Virus record (IMG/VR): IMGVR_UViG_3300027763_000170
Span: 1-30,372 of that record
Length of the DNA stretch: 30,372 nt
Direction: 5' to 3' (one strand)
Origin: a virus
Program-made: the position numbers and the translations under genes
In this document: one piece after another, positions 2,656-29,773 of the stretch
How positions within the stretch are numbered: the stretch's first letter is position 1
Layout: each line of letters opens with the position of its first letter
The notes under the pieces: model-generated
What the model was told of the DNA's origin: nothing
The model's input: only the letters and a program-made list of their open reading frames with translations
Databases searched by the model: none

Positions 2656-3830
2656 GACTTTTGAACCGTGCTGGCCGTGACGTGAGCATCAGAACCTTTG
2701 GTGTTGATACGAGCGTGGCGCCAGGACCACTGGACATTGGTTCTGCGCGTGTTGACGCTTCGCCTGTGCAAAGCATTGGCCTGCCGGCAGTTATGGCCGC
2801 GGTGCGCCTCGTTGCTGATTCCATTGCTGCTATGCCCGTCAAGGTTTATGATCGTGCCGGCGCGCTCGATCGGCAACTAGCTGACAGCACGCAGCAATAC
2901 AAGCTGCTGCACAACAGCCCAAACCTTGAGCAGTCCGCGTTTGAGTTCATTCAGGACGTTGTTTCTAGCGTTGAGTGCTTCGGTAACGCTTTTGTGCTGA
3001 AGACGATTGCGCAGGGGCAGGTGCAGGAGCTTCGTGTCCTTTCGGCTAGTCGCGTGACGGTTAAGGCTGACGCTAAGGGTCAGTTGACGTTTGAGATTCA
3101 GGACGGCGCTGACACGAAGACACTTACGAATCGTGAGATTTTGCATGTTCGGGGCCTTGCTCCGTTTGGTGGCGCGTCCGGCGTAAGCCCGCTCACGTTG
3201 CATCGCTCGACGCTGGGTAACAGTGTGGCCGTTCAATCGTTCGCTGGCCGCTACTTCGCTAACGATGCGACACCTGGCCTTGTTTTGAAGATGCCACAGA
3301 ACTTGAACGCGCAACAGGCTGAGGAAATTGGTAATCAGTGGAATCAAGCGCACCGCGGACTAGTTAACGCTCGCAAGACGGCTGTGCTTGGTGGCGGCGC
3401 TGACCTGCAGGTGTTGCCGGTAAGTATGGTTGACGCTCAGTTTGCTGAGATGGCAAAGCTCGGGATTGAGGACGTTGCACGCATCTTTGGCGTGCCTGCC
3501 GAGCTAATTACTGGCGCACCTGTGACTGATCCGCAAAAAACGGCTGAGCACTTCTTGAAGTTTTGTTTGGCGCCGCGGCTTCGTCGCATCGAGGCAGCGT
3601 TCGCCCGCGACACTGACTTGTTCCCTGAGCAGCTGACGCTTTATCCTGAGTTCAACGCTGACGCTTTGCTTCGGCCGGCGACACGCGAGCGCTACGAGGC
3701 ATACCGCGCAGCTAGGCAGGCCGGTTGGCTGAGCCCTAACGAGATCCGTGCGCTTGAGAACTATCCGCCGACGCCTGGTGGCGAAGAAATCCAAATGACA
3801 CCTGTCGGCGGCGCACCTAATCCCGTTTAA
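2652..3830 (+). CDS. Portal protein (HK97 family)
   Basis: Forms the dodecameric ring at one capsid vertex through which DNA enters and leaves, binding TerL and later the connector. The 392 aa sequence shows HK97 portal landmarks: the early helix with VMAAVRLVADSIAAMPVKVYDR (about residues 48-69), the LLHNSPN segment, the central FEFIQDVVSSVECFGNAF helix, HVRGLAPFGGASGVSPL, and the late EDVARIFGVPAELITG with TAEHFLKFCLAPRLRRIE stretch. Length is normal for the family. GTG 2652 overlaps the previous stop (GTGA), and the TAA stop overlaps the next ATG (TAATG). The C-terminal tail ends in the low-complexity stretch TPGGEEIQMTPVGGAPNPV. Confidence 0.95.
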   Translation: MRLLNRAGRDVSIRTFGVDTSVAPGPLDIGSARVDASPVQSIGLPAVMAAVRLVADSIAAMPVKVYDRAGALDRQLADSTQQYKLLHNSPNLEQSAFEFIQDVVSSVECFGNAFVLKTIAQGQVQELRVLSASRVTVKADAKGQLTFEIQDGADTKTLTNREILHVRGLAPFGGASGVSPLTLHRSTLGNSVAVQSFAGRYFANDATPGLVLKMPQNLNAQQAEEIGNQWNQAHRGLVNARKTAVLGGGADLQVLPVSMVDAQFAEMAKLGIEDVARIFGVPAELITGAPVTDPQKTAEHFLKFCLAPRLRRIEAAFARDTDLFPEQLTLYPEFNADALLRPATRERYEAYRAARQAGWLSPNEIRALENYPPTPGGEEIQMTPVGGAPNPV

Positions 3831-5275
3831 TGGCTGATCTAACACCTAACGCTGGAATGGCGGCGGCTGCGCAGCAAGGACTTGACTGGCGCACCGAAGG
3901 CTTAGGTGGCGACGGGCTTGTTGAAGCAACAATTAGTGACGCTAGAAAAATGGCGAACCGTGAGCCACTTTCTGAATCGAAGGTGCGGCGTATGCCCGCT
4001 TGGTTCGCTAGACACGCAGTTGACTTGGAGGCACCACAAAATGATCCTGATAACAAAGACTATCCTGGTGCCGGCCGTGTGGCGTGGCAACTTTGGGGCG
4101 GCGATGCTGGCCGCAGTTGGGCGGATGTAAAGGTGCGTCAACTAGACGAAGAAACACGCGCTCTCGGTCGGGGCGGCGATCACATTATCTGCGACATTGA
4201 CGGCACACTACTCAATAACGGCACTGAGCCGATCGTCAACACGATTGACTTTCTGGATGCGCGTCCTGAGCCCGTGTGCATAGTGTCGGGCCGCAAAGAA
4301 GCCGAGCGCGCTGACACCGTTGCCGCCCTCGATGCTGCAGATGTTGATTACTACGAGCTTTACTTGAATGACACGGACGCAGGCACAATCGAGTTTAAAA
4401 CCAGTGTTGCTGAGGCACTTATGGCTGAGTACAACATTGTGCTCGCTATTGACAATGATGAAGCAGCTCGAGCCGCGTATAACACGCTTGGTATTACGAC
4501 TTTGGCGCCAGATGACATTGAGGCTGCGGGGGCGGCCGATCAACCAGAGGATGCAATGAACACGTTTAGACACACTGCCCCCGTAAAACTTGAGGTTAGG
4601 GAATCAGCAATGGGTGCTGAGTATCTAACGGTGACGGGTTACGCAGCCGTCTTTGATCAAATGAGCCATGATCTTGGTGGTTTCCGTGAGGTCATTCAGC
4701 CAGGCGCGTTTGCTGACGTGCTCGGCGCCAATCCCGATGTGCACCTAGTGATCGGTCATAACATGGACTTGCCGCTTGCGCGTACTCGTAATGGCACGCT
4801 TGAGCTTGGTGAGGACATTCGCGGCTTGAAGATGTGGGCTCGCATCGACTCACGACTCAGTTACGCGAAAGACCTCGCGGTGCAGCTGAAGTCAGGTCTC
4901 GTTGACCAAATGAGTTTCGCGTTCACGATCCCAGAGGGTGGCGACACGTGGAGCGTTGACGACTCAGGCGCGGTTACACGCACCGTGAACCGCATTGACG
5001 GTCTTTATGACGTGAGTGTTGTTGCCGCGGGCGCGTACCCGCAAACTGATGTTCAAGCTGTGCGCGCACTTCTGCGTGACGCAGCTAACAAGGGTTTAAT
5101 TCCCGCAAATCTTGTGGACACTTCGCAGCCAGAAACGGTTGGGGGTGATTCCGTCGAGCAACATGCTGGCGGGACCGTCGAGTCAGATACTGGCGGTCGG
5201 CAGGCTATCCAAAACCTGCAAGCAGCTAAGGCAAAAACCAAAGCTGCCCTTCATAACCATTCGAAAGGACTCTAA
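3830..5275 (+). CDS. HAD phosphatase domain fused to HK97-family prohead protease
   Basis: One 481 aa frame holds three parts. Residues 1 to about 110 contain MPAWFARH and the motif GRVAWQLWGGDAGRSWA, a segment I recall next to protease domains in other phage proteins. Residues about 118-232 form a HAD phosphatase: CDIDGTL (Asp122, Asp124), SGR (153-155), Lys190 in EFK, and AIDND (Asp208, Asp210), in the order seen in PNKP-type 3'-phosphatases. Residues about 243-420 are an HK97 prohead protease, with VIGHN (His310) and QMSFAF (Ser362) as the likely catalytic His and Ser. The protease would mature the scaffold and capsid delta domain. ATG 4556 begins the protease domain (MNTFRHTA) and could be an internal start. 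TAATG overlaps couple the gene to portal and capsid. Confidence 0.88.
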   Translation: MADLTPNAGMAAAAQQGLDWRTEGLGGDGLVEATISDARKMANREPLSESKVRRMPAWFARHAVDLEAPQNDPDNKDYPGAGRVAWQLWGGDAGRSWADVKVRQLDEETRALGRGGDHIICDIDGTLLNNGTEPIVNTIDFLDARPEPVCIVSGRKEAERADTVAALDAADVDYYELYLNDTDAGTIEFKTSVAEALMAEYNIVLAIDNDEAARAAYNTLGITTLAPDDIEAAGAADQPEDAMNTFRHTAPVKLEVRESAMGAEYLTVTGYAAVFDQMSHDLGGFREVIQPGAFADVLGANPDVHLVIGHNMDLPLARTRNGTLELGEDIRGLKMWARIDSRLSYAKDLAVQLKSGLVDQMSFAFTIPEGGDTWSVDDSGAVTRTVNRIDGLYDVSVVAAGAYPQTDVQAVRALLRDAANKGLIPANLVDTSQPETVGGDSVEQHAGGTVESDTGGRQAIQNLQAAKAKTKAALHNHSKGL

Positions 5276-6588
5276 TGAGTTCGATTGATGAACTAACTCG
5301 CGCGCACAATGTTGCCGTTGAGGAAATGCACGCCGCTGCTGCGGCTATTGAGACTGCTGACGAATCAGCCGATCTCGACGCCCTTCAGGGTGAGTTTGAT
5401 AGCAAGCTCGAAGTTGCTGAGCGCGCTAAGGGTGCTGTTGAGGCCCGTGAAGCACTGATGACTGCCCGTGACGCAATGACCGTTAAGCCGGTTGCTGACG
5501 TCAAGGTTGAGGTCATTAGCAATGAGCAGGTTTACCGGCCCGATCGCCCTGAGCGCTCGTACTTCCGCGACCTGTACCTGTCCAAGACGAAGGGTGATCG
5601 TGAAGCAACTGATCGCCTTTCCGGTCATGCACTGGCAACACGTGACATCAACACCACTGATACAAGTGGTGGCGATTTCGTGCCGCCAGCGTACCTTGTC
5701 AATGAGTACATTGCTAAGGCACGTGCCGGCCGCGTTACTGCTGACCTTTGTTCGAAGTTCGCTCTGCCTGGTGGCACCGACTCGATCAACTTCCCAGCAA
5801 TCACGACTGGTACCGCTAACGCGGCTCAGGCATCGCAGAACAGTGCGCTGCAGGAAACTAACCTGGTAACTGCAACCGTCACGGCTCCGGTCACGACGAT
5901 TGGTGGTATTCAGGATGTTTCGGTTCAGCTCGTCGAGCAGAGCCCGATTGCGTTCGATCAGGTTATTTTCGCTGATCTTGCGGCTTCGCACGCGCAGGCC
6001 ATTGGTAGCGCGGTCATTAACGGCACTGGTGCTTCAGGAACCCTTGAGGGGTTTGTGAACGCTGACACTGTTAACACGATCACGTACACCGACGCATCAC
6101 CTACGGCTGCTGAAACGGTTAGCAAAATTGCTGACGGTATCCAGCAGGTTGCATCAGCTCGCTTCTTGCCTGCTGACGCAATTGTCATGCATCCTCGGCG
6201 TTGGTACGCCCTGAGTGCTGGTGTTGATGGTGGCGGTCGCCCGCTGGTTGTTCCTACCGCTCAAGCAATGAACACGTTCGGTACTGCCGAAGGTGTTGCT
6301 GCTGAAGGTTCGGTTGGCAACATCCTCGGACTGCCTGTGTACCTTGATCCGAACATCGCCACGAACACTGGCGCATCGACGAATCAGGACATCATCATCA
6401 TCTCGCGTTTCGCTGACGCTTACCTTTTCGAAGGTACGCCGAAGGCTGAAGTATTCCGTGAGACGCTCTCGGCTGAAGCGACTGTTCGTTTCCGCCTTTA
6501 CAACTTCGTTGCGTTCACTGCTGAGCGCTACGTCGGTATCAACACCTCGATCGTATCTGGAACGGGCCTGGTTTCGCCTAGCTTCTAG
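5275..6588 (+). CDS. Major capsid protein (HK97 fold)
   Basis: The 437 aa product builds the icosahedral shell. Residues 1 to about 65 are helical and charged (ELTRAHNVAVEEMHAAAAA onward) and look like a delta/scaffold domain removed by the upstream protease. The following body has the N-arm (SYFRDLY), a spine helix region, QDVSVQLVEQSPIAFDQVIFADLA, VMHPRRWYAL and the C-terminal VRFRLYNFVAFTAERYVGI typical of the Phage_capsid (gp5) family. The ATG overlaps the preceding stop (TAATG), so protease and capsid are coupled. It is followed by a 136 nt non-coding gap rich in hairpins, the first real gap in the late operon, which may cap or stabilise this highly expressed message. Confidence 0.95.
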   Translation: MSSIDELTRAHNVAVEEMHAAAAAIETADESADLDALQGEFDSKLEVAERAKGAVEAREALMTARDAMTVKPVADVKVEVISNEQVYRPDRPERSYFRDLYLSKTKGDREATDRLSGHALATRDINTTDTSGGDFVPPAYLVNEYIAKARAGRVTADLCSKFALPGGTDSINFPAITTGTANAAQASQNSALQETNLVTATVTAPVTTIGGIQDVSVQLVEQSPIAFDQVIFADLAASHAQAIGSAVINGTGASGTLEGFVNADTVNTITYTDASPTAAETVSKIADGIQQVASARFLPADAIVMHPRRWYALSAGVDGGGRPLVVPTAQAMNTFGTAEGVAAEGSVGNILGLPVYLDPNIATNTGASTNQDIIIISRFADAYLFEGTPKAEVFRETLSAEATVRFRLYNFVAFTAERYVGINTSIVSGTGLVSPSF

Positions 6589-6606
6589 AACGTTGGTGTG
6601 ATTAGC

Positions 6607-6625
6607 CCTGTCAAAACATGACAGG
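6607..6625 (+). other. Hairpin 1 downstream of capsid gene
   Basis: A perfect 7-bp inverted repeat, CCTGTCA / TGACAGG, around a 5-nt loop (AAACA). It lies 18 nt after the capsid stop codon. No T-run follows, so it is not a classical intrinsic terminator; mRNA 3'-end protection or an attenuation signal are possible roles. Confidence 0.6.
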
Positions 6626-6633
6626 TGTTAACT

Positions 6634-6697
6634 GCGGCGCCCTGATTGCCACTACGTGGCGTGGGCTTAGGCAGGGGTTTGATTCCCCTGCCGTCGC
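6634..6697 (+). other. tRNA-T-arm-like structured element after capsid gene
   Basis: The 64-nt segment contains a hairpin GCCAC-TAC-GTGGC (6648-6660) and a perfect 8-bp hairpin GGCAGGGG / CCCCTGCC (6670-6692) with loop TTTGATT. The latter is one base away from a canonical tRNA T-arm, in which the loop would be TTCGATT. Outer bases 6635-6641 (CGGCGCC) can pair with 6690-6696 (GCCGTCG) apart from one C-C mismatch, giving an acceptor-like closing stem. There is no room for normal D and anticodon arms, so it is not a functional tRNA. It could be a decayed tRNA, a tRNA-like regulatory fold, or a terminator lacking a U-tract. The pairing is visible; function is unknown. Confidence 0.5.
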
Positions 6698-6724
6698 TTG
6701 AAACAAGATTTAAAGGAGTTGGCT

Positions 6725-6895
6725 ATGAGCCAGCAACAAATCGCAGCACTCATTCGTGAACGCGCCAGCCTTGAGGCCCGCGGCTTACCTGATCGCGTTA
6801 AGCAAGTTGATGAGCAGCTGCGTCTGCTGGGCGCTAAGGGTGTGACGCCTGCTAAGCGTGCTGAGAAGCGTGTGCCCAAGAAGGCGCGTAAGTAA
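6725..6895 (+). CDS. Small basic protein following capsid
   Basis: A 56 aa protein starting at ATG 6725 with a strong ribosome site (AAAGGAG at 6712-6718). The frame is open from a TTG at 6698, but that start lies inside the upstream hairpin element and has no ribosome site. The N-terminal two thirds is an amphipathic helix (QQQIAALIRERASLEARG, then DRVKQVDEQLRLLG) and the tail is lysine/arginine rich (KRAEKRVPKKARK). A basic tail could bind DNA or the capsid interior. Its TAA overlaps the ATG of the connector gene. No family recognised. Confidence 0.8.
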   Translation: MSQQQIAALIRERASLEARGLPDRVKQVDEQLRLLGAKGVTPAKRAEKRVPKKARK

Positions 6896-17660: not shown

Positions 17661-18863
17661 TTGACTCAAACTCAGGGGGAGTTGGAACAGCTACTCAAAA
17701 CGCATGGCAGCTGGGCAGCCGCGGCAAGGGCGCTTGGTATGCCATCGAGCACGCTCAGGGCACGCGCTGACAAGGCACGTGTTAAGAAGCAAACTGCTGA
17801 GCCAGTAAAGGCATCATCGGTTGTTATTGAGGACGAAGCAGACCTCGGTGACATTCGGCGTTTGTGTGCTGATAGGGGCTTGGACGTTGACCGCGATTGG
17901 ATTGTGGTTCGCTCGAGGCTCAATAATTGGGGTGGGCCGGACGGCTTGGAGAACACGCAGCTGCGCGTTGATCTCGAGCCACGGCTTGGGATGCTTATGC
18001 CAGCAGCAAGTGATCCTGGCTGGGTTGCACCTAAGCGTAAGCCGCGGCCGGCGAGCAAGGGCAATGAGCTGGTGTGCTTTTTGAGCGATCAGCATGTGCC
18101 GTTTCACGATAAGCCTTTGCATAAGGCCACTGTTGCGTGGTTGACTGATCATCAGCCCGATCGCATCCTGCTACTTGGTGATCTGTTGGACTTCGATCAG
18201 GTGAGCAGGTATGCGCGTAATGATCTGCATACCGCAACGATGCAGGACACGCTTGATCAAGGTTACGAGGTGCTGCGCGACTATCGTGCCGCGGCGCCCG
18301 ACGCAGAGATCGTTTGCCTAGCCGGAAACCATGAAGAACGCCTACGGGCGGCGATCGGTAAGCAGCTAAGCGCAATCACGAACCTTAAACGACCAGGTGA
18401 CGATGACGGGCTGCTAAGCGTGCCGTTCTTGTTGCGCTTCGATGAGCTTGGAATCAAGTTTGTTCGCAGCGACGTTGGCGGCTATGAGCACGCAGCAATC
18501 AAGGTTAGTCCTGAGCTTCAAGCCATTCATGGCTGGATTGCTAAGAAGGGCTCCGGCTCGAGCGCAAGGGCAACGCTCGATCACATGAGAGTTTCGACGA
18601 TTCAGGGGCATACGCATAGGGCGTCAAGCGTGTTCTCAACTGAATGGACGATTGACAATGAGCCACGCACACTCGTCGCACTTGAAACGGGGTGCCTGTG
18701 CGAAATCAAAGATGGTTTGTCGCACGCTCCGCGACCGGATTGGCAGCAGGGGTTTGCAACCGCTAGCGTGCGCGCGAATGGCAGGTTCTTGTGCGAACAG
18801 GCCGTGTACGTGGCAGGGGCGTTGATGTGGCGTGACTGGACCTACGAAGGGGGCGGGGCATGA
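17661..18863 (+). CDS. Calcineurin-like metallophosphoesterase with N-terminal HTH
   Basis: The 400 aa product has all phosphoesterase motifs: SDQH (Asp143, His145), LLGDLLDF (Asp174), AGNHEE (Asn223, His224), and QGHTH (316-319) as the last metal-binding set. The N-terminal 40 residues (ELEQLLKTHGSWAAAARALGMPSSTLRARADK) form a helix-turn-helix of the Fis/resolvase type, so DNA targeting is likely. A nuclease or phosphatase acting on DNA is plausible, but substrate cannot be told. The TTG start at 17661 follows the previous stop by 1 nt and suggests coupled translation. A linker from about 45 to 135 has no known domain. Confidence 0.85.
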   Translation: MTQTQGELEQLLKTHGSWAAAARALGMPSSTLRARADKARVKKQTAEPVKASSVVIEDEADLGDIRRLCADRGLDVDRDWIVVRSRLNNWGGPDGLENTQLRVDLEPRLGMLMPAASDPGWVAPKRKPRPASKGNELVCFLSDQHVPFHDKPLHKATVAWLTDHQPDRILLLGDLLDFDQVSRYARNDLHTATMQDTLDQGYEVLRDYRAAAPDAEIVCLAGNHEERLRAAIGKQLSAITNLKRPGDDDGLLSVPFLLRFDELGIKFVRSDVGGYEHAAIKVSPELQAIHGWIAKKGSGSSARATLDHMRVSTIQGHTHRASSVFSTEWTIDNEPRTLVALETGCLCEIKDGLSHAPRPDWQQGFATASVRANGRFLCEQAVYVAGALMWRDWTYEGGGA

Positions 18864-25529: not shown

Positions 25530-25831
25530 GCCGTATTCAGCAGCGTAGGTGCGGGCTCGAGGCGCTATGCGGGTACGACGAAGTATTCGATGAGCACGGC
25601 TTCTTTCTGCAGGTGTGGCCGATCGGTCATGCTGGCTTGAACGTCATTGACATCGGGTACGCAAAGCCAGTGAGCATGGTGGAGCTGTGCGCGACGGCGC
25701 CTGACGTTGTTGTCGGCTTGTTTCTCTTGTCGCCCGTTGTTGATTTGATGCGGCAGCATGAGCGCGATCGTGATCGTATTAGTGAGGTTGATTGGCGTGA
25801 GGGTATGCCCGCGGGGTTGTGGGCCGAATGA
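25526..25831 (+). CDS. Hypothetical protein
   Basis: A 101 aa protein from ATG 25526 (ATGA overlap). It reads CGLEALCGYDEVFDEHGFFLQVWPIGHAGLNVIDIGYAKPVSMVELCATAP and then a hydrophobic PDVVVGLFLLSPVVDLMRQHERD, which is too short and polar at its flanks for a sure membrane span. The stop overlaps the CoiA-like start. No family recognised. Confidence 0.68.
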   Translation: MSRIQQRRCGLEALCGYDEVFDEHGFFLQVWPIGHAGLNVIDIGYAKPVSMVELCATAPDVVVGLFLLSPVVDLMRQHERDRDRISEVDWREGMPAGLWAE

Positions 25832-26520
25832 TTGTCGCGCAGCATGACGGCAGGTCTGTTCTTTGCAAGGAATCGGGGCAGAGGGCGATTTGTCCTGAAT
25901 GTCACGCGCCGGTAGCCGGCAAGTATGGAAGCGTCGTGATTCCACACTTTGCTCATCTTGCGAGCACCAGGTGTTCATACGGTTCTCATGGTGAGTCTGA
26001 GTGGCACCTTCGTTGGAAATGGCTGTTTGCTCGAGCTGGTTGGGAGTATGAAGTGCGTATTGGAGATCATCGCGCAGATGTTAGACGCGGCGATTGCGTG
26101 GTTGAGTTTCAAAAGCGGCCATTGAGCGACGAAGATTACTTTGGCCGAGCGGATACATACGGCGACGAAATGATTTGGGTAGTCGACGGGTCAAGGAGAG
26201 GCTTCACGTTTACCGAGAACAAACAGTTTGTGTGGGGTTCTATTGGTGCGCTTGGTTGGTTAGAGGGCGCTAGTCAACGAGTGATTATTGACGATGGTTA
26301 TGACTCTGCGTATTTAGTATCAGGGCTTCGGCGTCGTCGCAGTCGCAAAACCATGCGCGAGTACATCCACTGCGATGTAGAGCACGTGTGGGAGCGAGAG
26401 GTCGATGGCTGGGATGAACACGCGCAACTTTTACAATGTCTAACCTCGTCTGCTGATATTGGTAGCACTGACTTGCTGGTAATGGATCATTTAGGCAACG
26501 AGTGGAGAATTAAACAATGA
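25828..26520 (+). CDS. CoiA-like nuclease
   Basis: The 230 aa protein matches the competence protein CoiA layout. A zinc site CPEC (22, 25) is followed by PHFAH (His40, His43), then GESEWHLRWKWLF (Glu56, His60, Lys64). The nuclease core is HRADVRRGDCVVEFQKRPLSDED, with Asp84, Glu93 and Gln95 as the PD-(D/E)xK-type site, plus RADTY. CoiA family proteins act on DNA during natural transformation; phage copies are sometimes seen and may process DNA in recombination. ATG 25828 overlaps the previous stop; GTG 25819 is a less likely start. It ends in an ATGA overlap. Confidence 0.8.
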   Translation: MIVAQHDGRSVLCKESGQRAICPECHAPVAGKYGSVVIPHFAHLASTRCSYGSHGESEWHLRWKWLFARAGWEYEVRIGDHRADVRRGDCVVEFQKRPLSDEDYFGRADTYGDEMIWVVDGSRRGFTFTENKQFVWGSIGALGWLEGASQRVIIDDGYDSAYLVSGLRRRRSRKTMREYIHCDVEHVWEREVDGWDEHAQLLQCLTSSADIGSTDLLVMDHLGNEWRIKQ

Positions 26521-28215: not shown

Positions 28216-28283
28216 GTCTGTCCGAGTGGCCTGCGATGCTTTCCCAAATGGGTGGCGCCGCCTGCCCGCATAGATTCACCTGA

Positions 28284-28304
28284 GCCCTGCGTAATCCGCG
28301 GGGC
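28284..28304 (+). terminator. Terminator-like hairpin
   Basis: GCCCTGCG (28284-28291), loop TAATC, CGCGGGGC (28297-28304): 8 bp with one G-T wobble. Only TTACT follows, not a full T-run, so termination would be weak. It sits between the small HTH gene and the surface-modification genes. Confidence 0.45.
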
Positions 28305-28332
28305 TTACTCGTTGGGGAGACAGGGGCCGGCA

Positions 28333-28497
28333 GTGTTCATTGACGTTGACCTAACAAACATGCGCGTTTATGTGCGTGGCCGGCGCTTGCATCACGGCTT
28401 AATTGGGGCTGTGGCGATCGCAGCTGGCCTCGTTGCCGCTGTTCATGACAGGCGTGACGCGAAGGTGTGGGTGAGGGACTTCGTTCGTAAGGGGTGA
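28333..28497 (+). CDS. Small membrane-associated protein (54 aa)
   Basis: GTG 28333 with AGGGG at 28322-28326 gives MFIDVDLTNMRVYVRGRRL, then HHGLIGAVAIAAGLVAAVHD, and a basic end. It has a single hydrophobic helix (LIGAVAIAAGLVAA). The frame is open upstream to GTG 28252, but that part overlaps the hairpin and lacks a ribosome site. GTGA overlap with the deacetylase gene, so it may support that enzyme at the membrane; this is only a positional guess. Confidence 0.55.
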   Translation: MFIDVDLTNMRVYVRGRRLHHGLIGAVAIAAGLVAAVHDRRDAKVWVRDFVRKG

Positions 28498-29180
28498 GCC
28501 GCATGCTTCAGATGCCACTGTTCGGTGTAGTGGGCTATCGACGCATGCTTGTTGACTTGGCTGCCGCGGGTTACAGGATGCGGCCAACTGAGGACATTGG
28601 TACTCGTGAGCGGTCGGTGTTCATGCGGCACGATGTTGACTGTCACCTTGACGGCATCATTCCGTTCGCTCGGCTTGAGCGTGAGATGGGTTGCAGGTCA
28701 ACTTGGTTTGTGCCTGTGACGTTCAACTTCAATGTGTTGCACGAACCAAACAGCCAGGTACTTCGTGAGCTCGTAGCGTTCGGCCACAACATCGGCTTGC
28801 ATTACGATCCGCTGATGACACGAACACGTGAAGACTTGCGCAGGCAGATCAGAGTCTTGGAGAACGCATCAGGGTTTAAGGTGCGGTCGGTCACGTCGCA
28901 TAAGCCAGGCAGCATTGACTCGCGGGTTGACACGTCTGATTGGCGTGTACCTATTCACTCGGAGTACGTGAGCGATAGTGGCAGGCGCTGGCGTGACGAT
29001 CGCCTAATGCGACTAACGCATAAGCAAGAGTCGTTCATGTTGCTTACGCACGTTGAGCATTGGATGAGCGCTGAGCTTTCGTTGACTGATCACTTCGCGT
29101 TAAGCACGTTGCCTAACTGCACTCGGCAATCACAAGATCACGCTGTTGAAGTACTAACGGATTGCTTGGCTCACACATGA
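28494..29180 (+). CDS. Polysaccharide deacetylase-like (NodB-fold) protein
   Basis: A 228 aa protein with the divergent WbmS-like deacetylase pattern: FMRHDVDCH with metal Asp47/Asp49, STWFVPVTFNFN, then FGHNIGLHYDP (His98, His103), and SHKPG with His136. Typical NodB TFDDG and RxPY motifs are absent, so this is a distant branch, probably removing N-acetyl groups from an amino sugar. GTG 28494 overlaps the preceding stop (GTGA); ATG 28503 is a possible alternative. Its stop overlaps the start of the acyltransferase gene (ATGA). Substrate unknown: host surface glycan, phage glycan or a nucleotide sugar. Confidence 0.75.
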   Translation: MSRMLQMPLFGVVGYRRMLVDLAAAGYRMRPTEDIGTRERSVFMRHDVDCHLDGIIPFARLEREMGCRSTWFVPVTFNFNVLHEPNSQVLRELVAFGHNIGLHYDPLMTRTREDLRRQIRVLENASGFKVRSVTSHKPGSIDSRVDTSDWRVPIHSEYVSDSGRRWRDDRLMRLTHKQESFMLLTHVEHWMSAELSLTDHFALSTLPNCTRQSQDHAVEVLTDCLAHT

Positions 29181-29773
29181 TGCCTGAAGCGTTTGCTGAC
29201 GTAACGCTGTTGCAAGGACGCTGGTGGATGCATGAGCTTGCATCAGTACACACCTCGGCCATCATCTTCCCTGGCGTTTACATCGGGCCAAACGTGAGGA
29301 TTAGCGAGGGCTGCGTGATCGGACCTAACACTTGCATCGGGCAGCCAGGCTTCGGTTACAACACGCTCGAGGATGGCACACGCGAGTACCGCGACCATTC
29401 GCAAGGCGTACTACTTGAAGCTGACGTGCATGTTGGGGCGAACACTTGCATAGATCAAGGCCGACACAGACGCACCGAGATTGGCGCCGGCACGAAGATC
29501 GACAACCTTGTTCACATTGCACACAACGTAATCATCGGTAAGCGCTGCCTCATCATTGCGCATACAATGCTCGGCGGGTCAGTAACAATCGGTGATGACG
29601 CGCACATCGCACCTGGCAGTCTCATTCGTGACTGGCGCAACGTAGGTGCCAACGCAACAAGCGGGCTCGGTGCGGTCGTAGTGAAGGACATACCAACAGG
29701 GGAAACGCACGCAGGTAATCCTGCCAACAACCTTGAGGTACGCAATGACCGACAATGCGCTGGACCTAGCTGA
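29177..29773 (+). CDS. LpxD-like left-handed beta-helix acyltransferase
   Basis: A 198 aa protein of hexapeptide repeats (GVYIGPNVRISEGCVIGPN, VHVGANTCIDQG, VTIGDDAHIAPGSLI). It also has LpxD-type signatures GQPGFGYN (55-62) and IDNLVHIAHNVIIG (about 108-121), with His116 at the place of the LpxD catalytic His. The N-terminal uridine-binding domain and C-terminal helices of LpxD (about 340 aa) are missing, so it may use another acceptor. ATG 29177 (ATGA overlap; next ATG 29180) ties it to the deacetylase. N- or O-acyltransfer to a sugar is inferred. Confidence 0.8.
   Translation: MMPEAFADVTLLQGRWWMHELASVHTSAIIFPGVYIGPNVRISEGCVIGPNTCIGQPGFGYNTLEDGTREYRDHSQGVLLEADVHVGANTCIDQGRHRRTEIGAGTKIDNLVHIAHNVIIGKRCLIIAHTMLGGSVTIGDDAHIAPGSLIRDWRNVGANATSGLGAVVVKDIPTGETHAGNPANNLEVRNDRQCAGPS

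Follow-up and report, generated by a model that had tools for sequence, protein, structure and literature searches.

Two overlapping genes in a tailed-phage genome probably form a deacetylate-then-reacylate module, with predicted activities directed at an amino sugar of a surface or virion glycan. The genome is IMG/VR record IMGVR_UViG_3300027763_000170, analyzed over 30,372 nucleotides (the window), and family matches identify terminase, capsid-protease and tail genes as well as a protein with a transglycosylase-like domain (PF06737). The major capsid protein matched 57 records in a collection of 50,697 phage records, all of them Mycobacterium phages and no others, so the host is likely to be an actinobacterium and to lack lipid A; the capsid protein thus bears out the original prediction of an actinobacteriophage. 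Elsewhere in the window, a 481-amino acid ORF (3830 to 5275) matches head maturation protease families and, over an overlapping part, polynucleotide kinase families. A metallophosphoesterase-like protein (17661 to 18863) lies downstream of tail and CHAP-domain genes, and a CoiA N-terminal-like protein (25819 to 26520; PF25164, 2.1e-10) is also encoded within the phage genome.

The upstream gene of the pair, on the plus strand at 28494 to 29180, encodes the 228-amino acid protein P0001, a predicted sugar N-deacetylase of NodB-like (CE4) fold recognized from an AF2 model, Foldseek and its homologues. On the same strand at 29177 to 29773, the second gene encodes P0002, a predicted N-acyltransferase of 198 amino acids with an LpxD-like left-handed beta-helix, assigned from LpxD structure and profile matches. 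Both ORFs are uninterrupted over the coordinates originally predicted for them, and the ATGA coupling claimed for 28494 to 29773 is present in the sequence: the TGA stop of the first gene (29178 to 29180) overlaps the ATG start of the second (29177 to 29179) within plus-strand positions 29177 to 29180. A mechanical call of TTG 29162 as the acyltransferase start was set aside, because this overlap places the start at 29177. The GTG start of the deacetylase gene (28494) in turn overlaps the stop of a small plus-strand ORF (28252 to 28497, 81 amino acids) as GTGA, and the two are probably on the same transcript; family matches to the small ORF were sought and none was found. An alternative deacetylase start is the ATG at 28503, which has AGGGG about 10 nucleotides upstream.

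P0001 has no match in Pfam, NCBIfam or PHROG, and searches using it alone gave nothing convincing; the relationship to CE4 enzymes came out only via alignment and fold. An AF2 model built from the viral homologue alignment (pLDDT 78) returned CE4 deacetylases as all of its top 16 PDB matches in Foldseek (best E 2e-5, probability 1.00, TM about 0.5), in line with the divergent NodB-fold deacetylase first proposed; ranks 2 and 3 are the CE4 pseudoenzyme BA3943. Profile searches for the family agree weakly with CE4 (7y51, E 0.0017). The PF01522 gathering cut-off is reached by none of the 13 members of the viral alignment, and the cellular relatives L051 and L066 match that model at 0.009 and 0.013, below the cut-off. 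No export signal in P0001 was apparent by eye. A lysis-type peptidoglycan deacetylase was considered and dismissed, the coupled partner being an acyltransferase.

Homologues of P0001 were found at 17 viral and 67 cellular loci. The absence of TFDDG from the window deacetylase had been remarked on correctly: at the place of CE4 motif 1 (TFDD), the homologue alignment puts HDVD (H46-D47-V48-D49, 28629 to 28640, plus strand), with H46 and D47 invariant and position 49 always D or E in 83 of 83 aligned homologues. H103 (28800 to 28802, plus strand) aligns to the first metal His of motif 2 in CE4 structures; the H(S/T)xxH pattern itself is broken, with L107 in place of the i+4 His, and nearby D105 is D or E in 81 of 85 homologues. 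Further along the same strand, H136 (28899 to 28901) is invariant (84/84) and the motif 5-like H186 (29049 to 29051) nearly so (83/84). Across 85 homologues H46, D47, D49 (D/E), H103, H136, D161 and H186 are near-invariant, and all are present in the window protein. Because this non-canonical site is so widely conserved, the alignment argues against decay and for a divergent yet constrained candidate active site. Since neither motif 1 of CE4 enzymes nor a second metal His is present, the predicted metal site must be unusual.

P0002 agrees with what had been supposed, a predicted left-handed beta-helix acyltransferase with the LpxD signature and catalytic His. Its best solved relatives are LpxD structures (PDB 2iu8, E 6.8e-21), Hexapep matches at 5.3e-21, and alignment locates the signature KIDNLVHIAHN at 29495 to 29527 (plus strand), including the catalytic H116 (29522 to 29524), invariant in 16 of 16 relatives. 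A W stands where E. coli LpxD carries a further His (GHMEI), which counts against the proposed module. The LpxD models of NCBIfam match at 1.4e-41, over the helix region only and below their cut-offs (136.5 versus 242.5 bits for the equivalog); NeuD_NnaD, from among the NeuD/PglB acetyltransferases, matches as well, at a far poorer 5.1e-23. The protein covers positions 148 to 315 of 345 in profile PRK00892, its match to TIGR01853 stops at 306 of 325, and the C-terminal extension of LpxD is absent. Also absent is the N-terminal, UDP-binding domain (PF04613), which is weak in L053 and L066 and is kept in phage L010 and in cellular relatives. The earlier description of an enzyme with no uridine-binding domain is thus right for the window and wrong as a general trait; judging from these matches, the loss is restricted to some phage copies. 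As to the catalytic groups on which the original prediction was staked, P0001 has the fold of CE4 enzymes, P0002 keeps the acyltransferase His, and the candidate metal site is non-canonical though conserved. An AF2 model of P0002 led Foldseek to right-handed pectate lyases, none below E 0.001; this is most likely a handedness error from a thin alignment, and the model was discarded in favor of the sequence evidence. Lipid A synthesis by the phage was likewise dismissed, in view of the missing LpxD parts and the actinophage relatives.

A search for the same gene pair, suggested at the outset, found it in other viruses, bacteria and archaea. Starting from P0002 alone, 25 viral loci were recovered, the distinct records among them amounting to 20 with the window. 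A deacetylase gene lies within two genes of the acyltransferase gene in 18 of these 20 records and is its immediate neighbor in 14; against random placement in the same stretches the adjacency has P = 3.5e-10, a value that overstates independence, as the 20 records are partly related. The deacetylase slot is filled by a NodB-like protein in 5 records and by a PIG-L/LmbE-like protein, whose fold is unrelated, in 13; none has both together. PF02585 was above cut-off in all seven viral PIG-L copies scanned and then in both copies of a second scan. Short gene overlaps like the ATGA of the window recur across viral and cellular loci, in L002, L005, L048, L051, L053 and L078. NodB-like genes with no LpxD-like neighbor occur in the viral loci L032, L034, L036, L038, L039, L041 and L042. 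Among cultured phages in the 50,697-record collection the pair was not found; Arthrobacter phage Pitbull encodes a distantly related acetyltransferase with no annotated deacetylase neighbor, and four records lacking annotation, of which three are virome contigs, yielded no additional pair. Some viral cassettes with PIG-L and LpxD-like genes also encode an asparagine-synthase-like amidotransferase (L004:5929-7455, L008:8543-10294, L009:8477-10219, L013:8525-10285), which perhaps forms uronamides.

Among cells, we sampled from the deacetylase side, using an alignment of NodB-like sequences taken from phages alone, which retrieved 67 loci. In 15 of the 67, an LpxD-like gene lies within 200 nucleotides of the NodB-like gene, both gene orders being seen, and the paired genes often overlap by a few to about thirty nucleotides. 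The LpxD-like partner is longer in bacteria and archaea than in the window. The pair occurs in hosts such as Bacillota, Erysipelotrichaceae, Clostridium, Athalassotoga (the cultured Athalassotoga saccharophila, L078), Myxococcota and ammonia-oxidising archaea; metagenome-assembled genomes represent many of these hosts. Most of the 67 loci have no LpxD-like neighbor, so the NodB-like family has uses outside the pairing too. It is also rare, occurring in 6 of 200 Nitrosopumilaceae, 13 of 391 genomes of the Clostridium class and 2 of 395 of the Micrococcales class. A Thermoflexus metagenome-assembled genome has a PIG-L gene (L046:5222-5875, minus strand) and a NodB-like gene (5977-6780, plus strand) as divergent neighbors, the only immediate NodB/PIG-L neighbors seen, with no LpxD-like gene nearby.

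A set of 200 Nitrosopumilaceae genomes includes 20 that together encode 21 LpxD-like genes, of which four lie by a NodB-like gene, three by a PIG-L gene and one is fused to PIG-L; the remaining 13 have no NodB-like or PIG-L deacetylase within 1.5 kb. The fusion (L160:250-2058, minus strand) is a single protein of 602 amino acids comprising a PIG-L deacetylase (5.6e-22) and a full LpxD-like acyltransferase, including the LpxD N-terminal domain (PF04613, 1.7e-8, above cut-off). Another archaeal LpxD-like protein, L053:6689-7606, passes the NCBIfam equivalog cut-off for lipid A LpxD (254.2 versus 242.5), and archaea, to our knowledge, make no lipid A. Because this protein passes it, the cut-off is an annotation trap, and passing it is no proof of a role in lipid A synthesis. 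The pair had first seemed striking in a host without lipid A; the host assignment is supported, and the situation is less paradoxical than it seemed, given LpxD-like enzymes in Clostridia, Erysipelotrichaceae and Nitrosopumilaceae, all organisms without lipid A.

Phylogenetic trees place P0001 in a clade (support 99) with sequences from Actinomycetota (L044, which has the pair, and L043), Chloroflexota (L046) and Syntrophaceae (L049, with the pair). P0002 is sister, with support of 96, to its counterpart in the pair-bearing phage L002, whose terminase is closest to those of Streptomyces phages. The histories of the two genes in the window may differ. In the acyltransferase tree, proteins with a NodB partner (L003, L005) group with proteins that have a PIG-L partner (L015, L017, L019), so deacetylase partners appear to have been swapped within one LpxD-like subtree. 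The viral contigs L029, L030 and L033 carry cassettes of NodB-like, FkbM methyltransferase and LpxD-like genes among structural genes; since the deacetylase tree places the NodB-like proteins of these contigs with Nitrosopumilaceae, they may be thaumarchaeal viruses. Viruses seem to have gained the module several times, with long branches leaving exact placements unsure.

Cellular pairs often lie among genes for WbpA (NDP-sugar 6-dehydrogenase), WbpB (UDP-GlcNAc 3-dehydrogenase-like), WbpD and WbpE, the known route to UDP-2,3-diacetamido uronic acids. The pair is found inside such UDP-diaminosugar clusters in L048, L051 and L134, and the NodB-like gene alone in L136; many cellular clusters also carry genes for a DegT aminotransferase and for a WbpD-like acyltransferase distinct from the LpxD-like one. 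A minority of clusters have genes nearby that could supply an acyl donor: a 3-hydroxybutyryl-CoA dehydrogenase (L051), FabH with FabG (L050), a MaoC-like hydratase (L138) and AMP-ligases (L134, L063). An acyl-CoA dehydrogenase gene adjoins the LpxD-like gene in phage L029. That such genes accompany cellular copies is consistent with an acyl donor other than acetyl. Because the enzymes of L051, L050 and L138 can converge on 3-hydroxyacyl thioesters, this minority of clusters, cellular and outside the window, points to a 3-hydroxyacyl as the incoming group.

We propose that the NodB-fold enzyme would strip the N-acetyl group from a host-made amino sugar, most likely nucleotide-linked, and that the LpxD-like enzyme, through its conserved His, would put another acyl group on the freed amine, most likely a short 3-hydroxyacyl from CoA or ACP. 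The re-acylated sugar would then be built into a host-surface or virion glycan, changing recognition. The LpxD-like acyltransferase would team up with any available deacetylase fold, much as LpxD follows LpxC in lipid A synthesis, and the window would represent a minimal form that depends on the host for its amino sugar. Sequential action on the same substrate is supported indirectly by fold replacement and fusion. The idea of an N-acyl swap has gained support from context (conserved pairing, two folds and a fusion) and in part from structure; we infer the two activities, their order, the shared nitrogen, the donor, the sugar and the target.

It is scarcely credible that the two genes are unrelated neighbors acquired by chance. 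NodB-like and LpxD-like genes do each occur apart in polysaccharide clusters, but the conservation of their adjacency across viruses, bacteria and archaea and in both gene orders, partner replacement and fusion largely refute chance as a general statement, and the unrelated context against which the original prediction had warned did not appear. Very improbable, too, is that P0001 is a pseudoenzyme or sugar-binding protein that leaves P0002 alone catalytic: the missing TFDD, the missing second His of HxxxH and the Foldseek matches to BA3943 would suit that idea, whereas the near-invariant residues kept in the window, and the PIG-L enzymes that fill the same slot in other viruses, speak against it.

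Two further alternatives accept both enzymes and differ in the chemistry. P0002 might be a NeuD/WbpD-type acetyltransferase that exchanges acetyl for acetyl in recycling or repair, introducing no new group. Hexapeptide acetyltransferases are common and the NeuD_NnaD model does match; we give this little chance, however, against the much stronger LpxD matches and the 3-hydroxyacyl or acyl-activating genes beside several cellular copies. Alternatively, the enzymes could belong to one amino-sugar pathway and act on different nitrogens, the deacetylase freeing one amine permanently and the LpxD-like enzyme acylating another made by an aminotransferase. The DegT and WbpD-like genes of many cellular clusters do put several nitrogens in play, but no sugar aminotransferase lies beside the pair in the window or among the listed genes of L004, L018 and L022, and fusion together with one-to-one pairing with two folds most simply means substrate hand-over, so that this arrangement is rather unlikely. 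The preferred reading remains deacetylation followed by re-acylation of the same nitrogen.

More broadly, the evidence leaves evenly balanced a claim that a general, lipid A-independent module, composed of a NodB- or PIG-L-fold deacetylase and an LpxD-like acyltransferase, tailors nucleotide-linked surface amino sugars in bacteria and archaea, and that viruses of different hosts took it up repeatedly to rewrite host or virion N-acyl groups. Because such a module would be independent of lipid A, the lack of lipid A in the host would be no paradox. If true, the claim would explain genes resembling lipid A LpxD in archaea, Gram-positives and viruses, would rationalize the substrate of a NodB-like family for which Pfam has no model, and would make N-acyl identity a surface-sugar feature altered by viruses. 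The pairing lends itself directly to a two-enzyme assay, with the archaeal fusion as a single-protein version.

In the open-licence literature that we searched, for the pair itself and for LpxD with LmbE, PIG-L with an N-acyltransferase, Nitrosopumilus LpxD and NodB/NodA/LpxD, we found neither a description of this pairing nor a measured activity. One of the closest known systems is LpxC-LpxD of lipid A synthesis, which shares the succession of deacetylation and N-acylation, the LpxD fold and the catalytic His. LpxC, however, has a fold different from both NodB and PIG-L, and P0002 lacks the N- and C-terminal parts of LpxD, falls below LpxD cut-offs and occurs in a lipid A-free setting, while cellular copies of the pair lie in UDP-diaminosugar clusters. 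In rhizobial Nod factor synthesis, a NodB-fold deacetylase is followed by an N-acyltransferase, NodA, and dedicated acyl-chain genes, NodE/NodF, are nearby, comparable to FabH/FabG in L050. NodA is not a beta-helix enzyme, and NodB acts on chitooligosaccharide and has canonical CE4 motifs, whereas the window pairs a beta-helix acyltransferase with a deacetylase lacking those motifs. Cellular pairs also sit within clusters for the WbpA/B/E/D pathway to UDP-GlcNAc(3NAc)A-type sugars, which is not known to include a deacetylase or an LpxD-like enzyme; its WbpD, a shorter beta-helix acetyltransferase of a different kind, is present there in addition to the LpxD-like enzyme. UDP-QuiNAc4NHb gene sets, an example of bacterial N-(3-hydroxybutyryl) amino sugars, are predicted to include an acyltransferase dedicated to placing 3-hydroxybutyryl on an amino sugar, with the amine provided by a 4-aminotransferase rather than by deacetylation as in the proposed module (PMC3628348). 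On motif and domain evidence, the pair described here would work like LpxC-LpxD and NodB-NodA and is a member of neither, because the defining motifs and domains of those systems were looked for and are not those of the pair.
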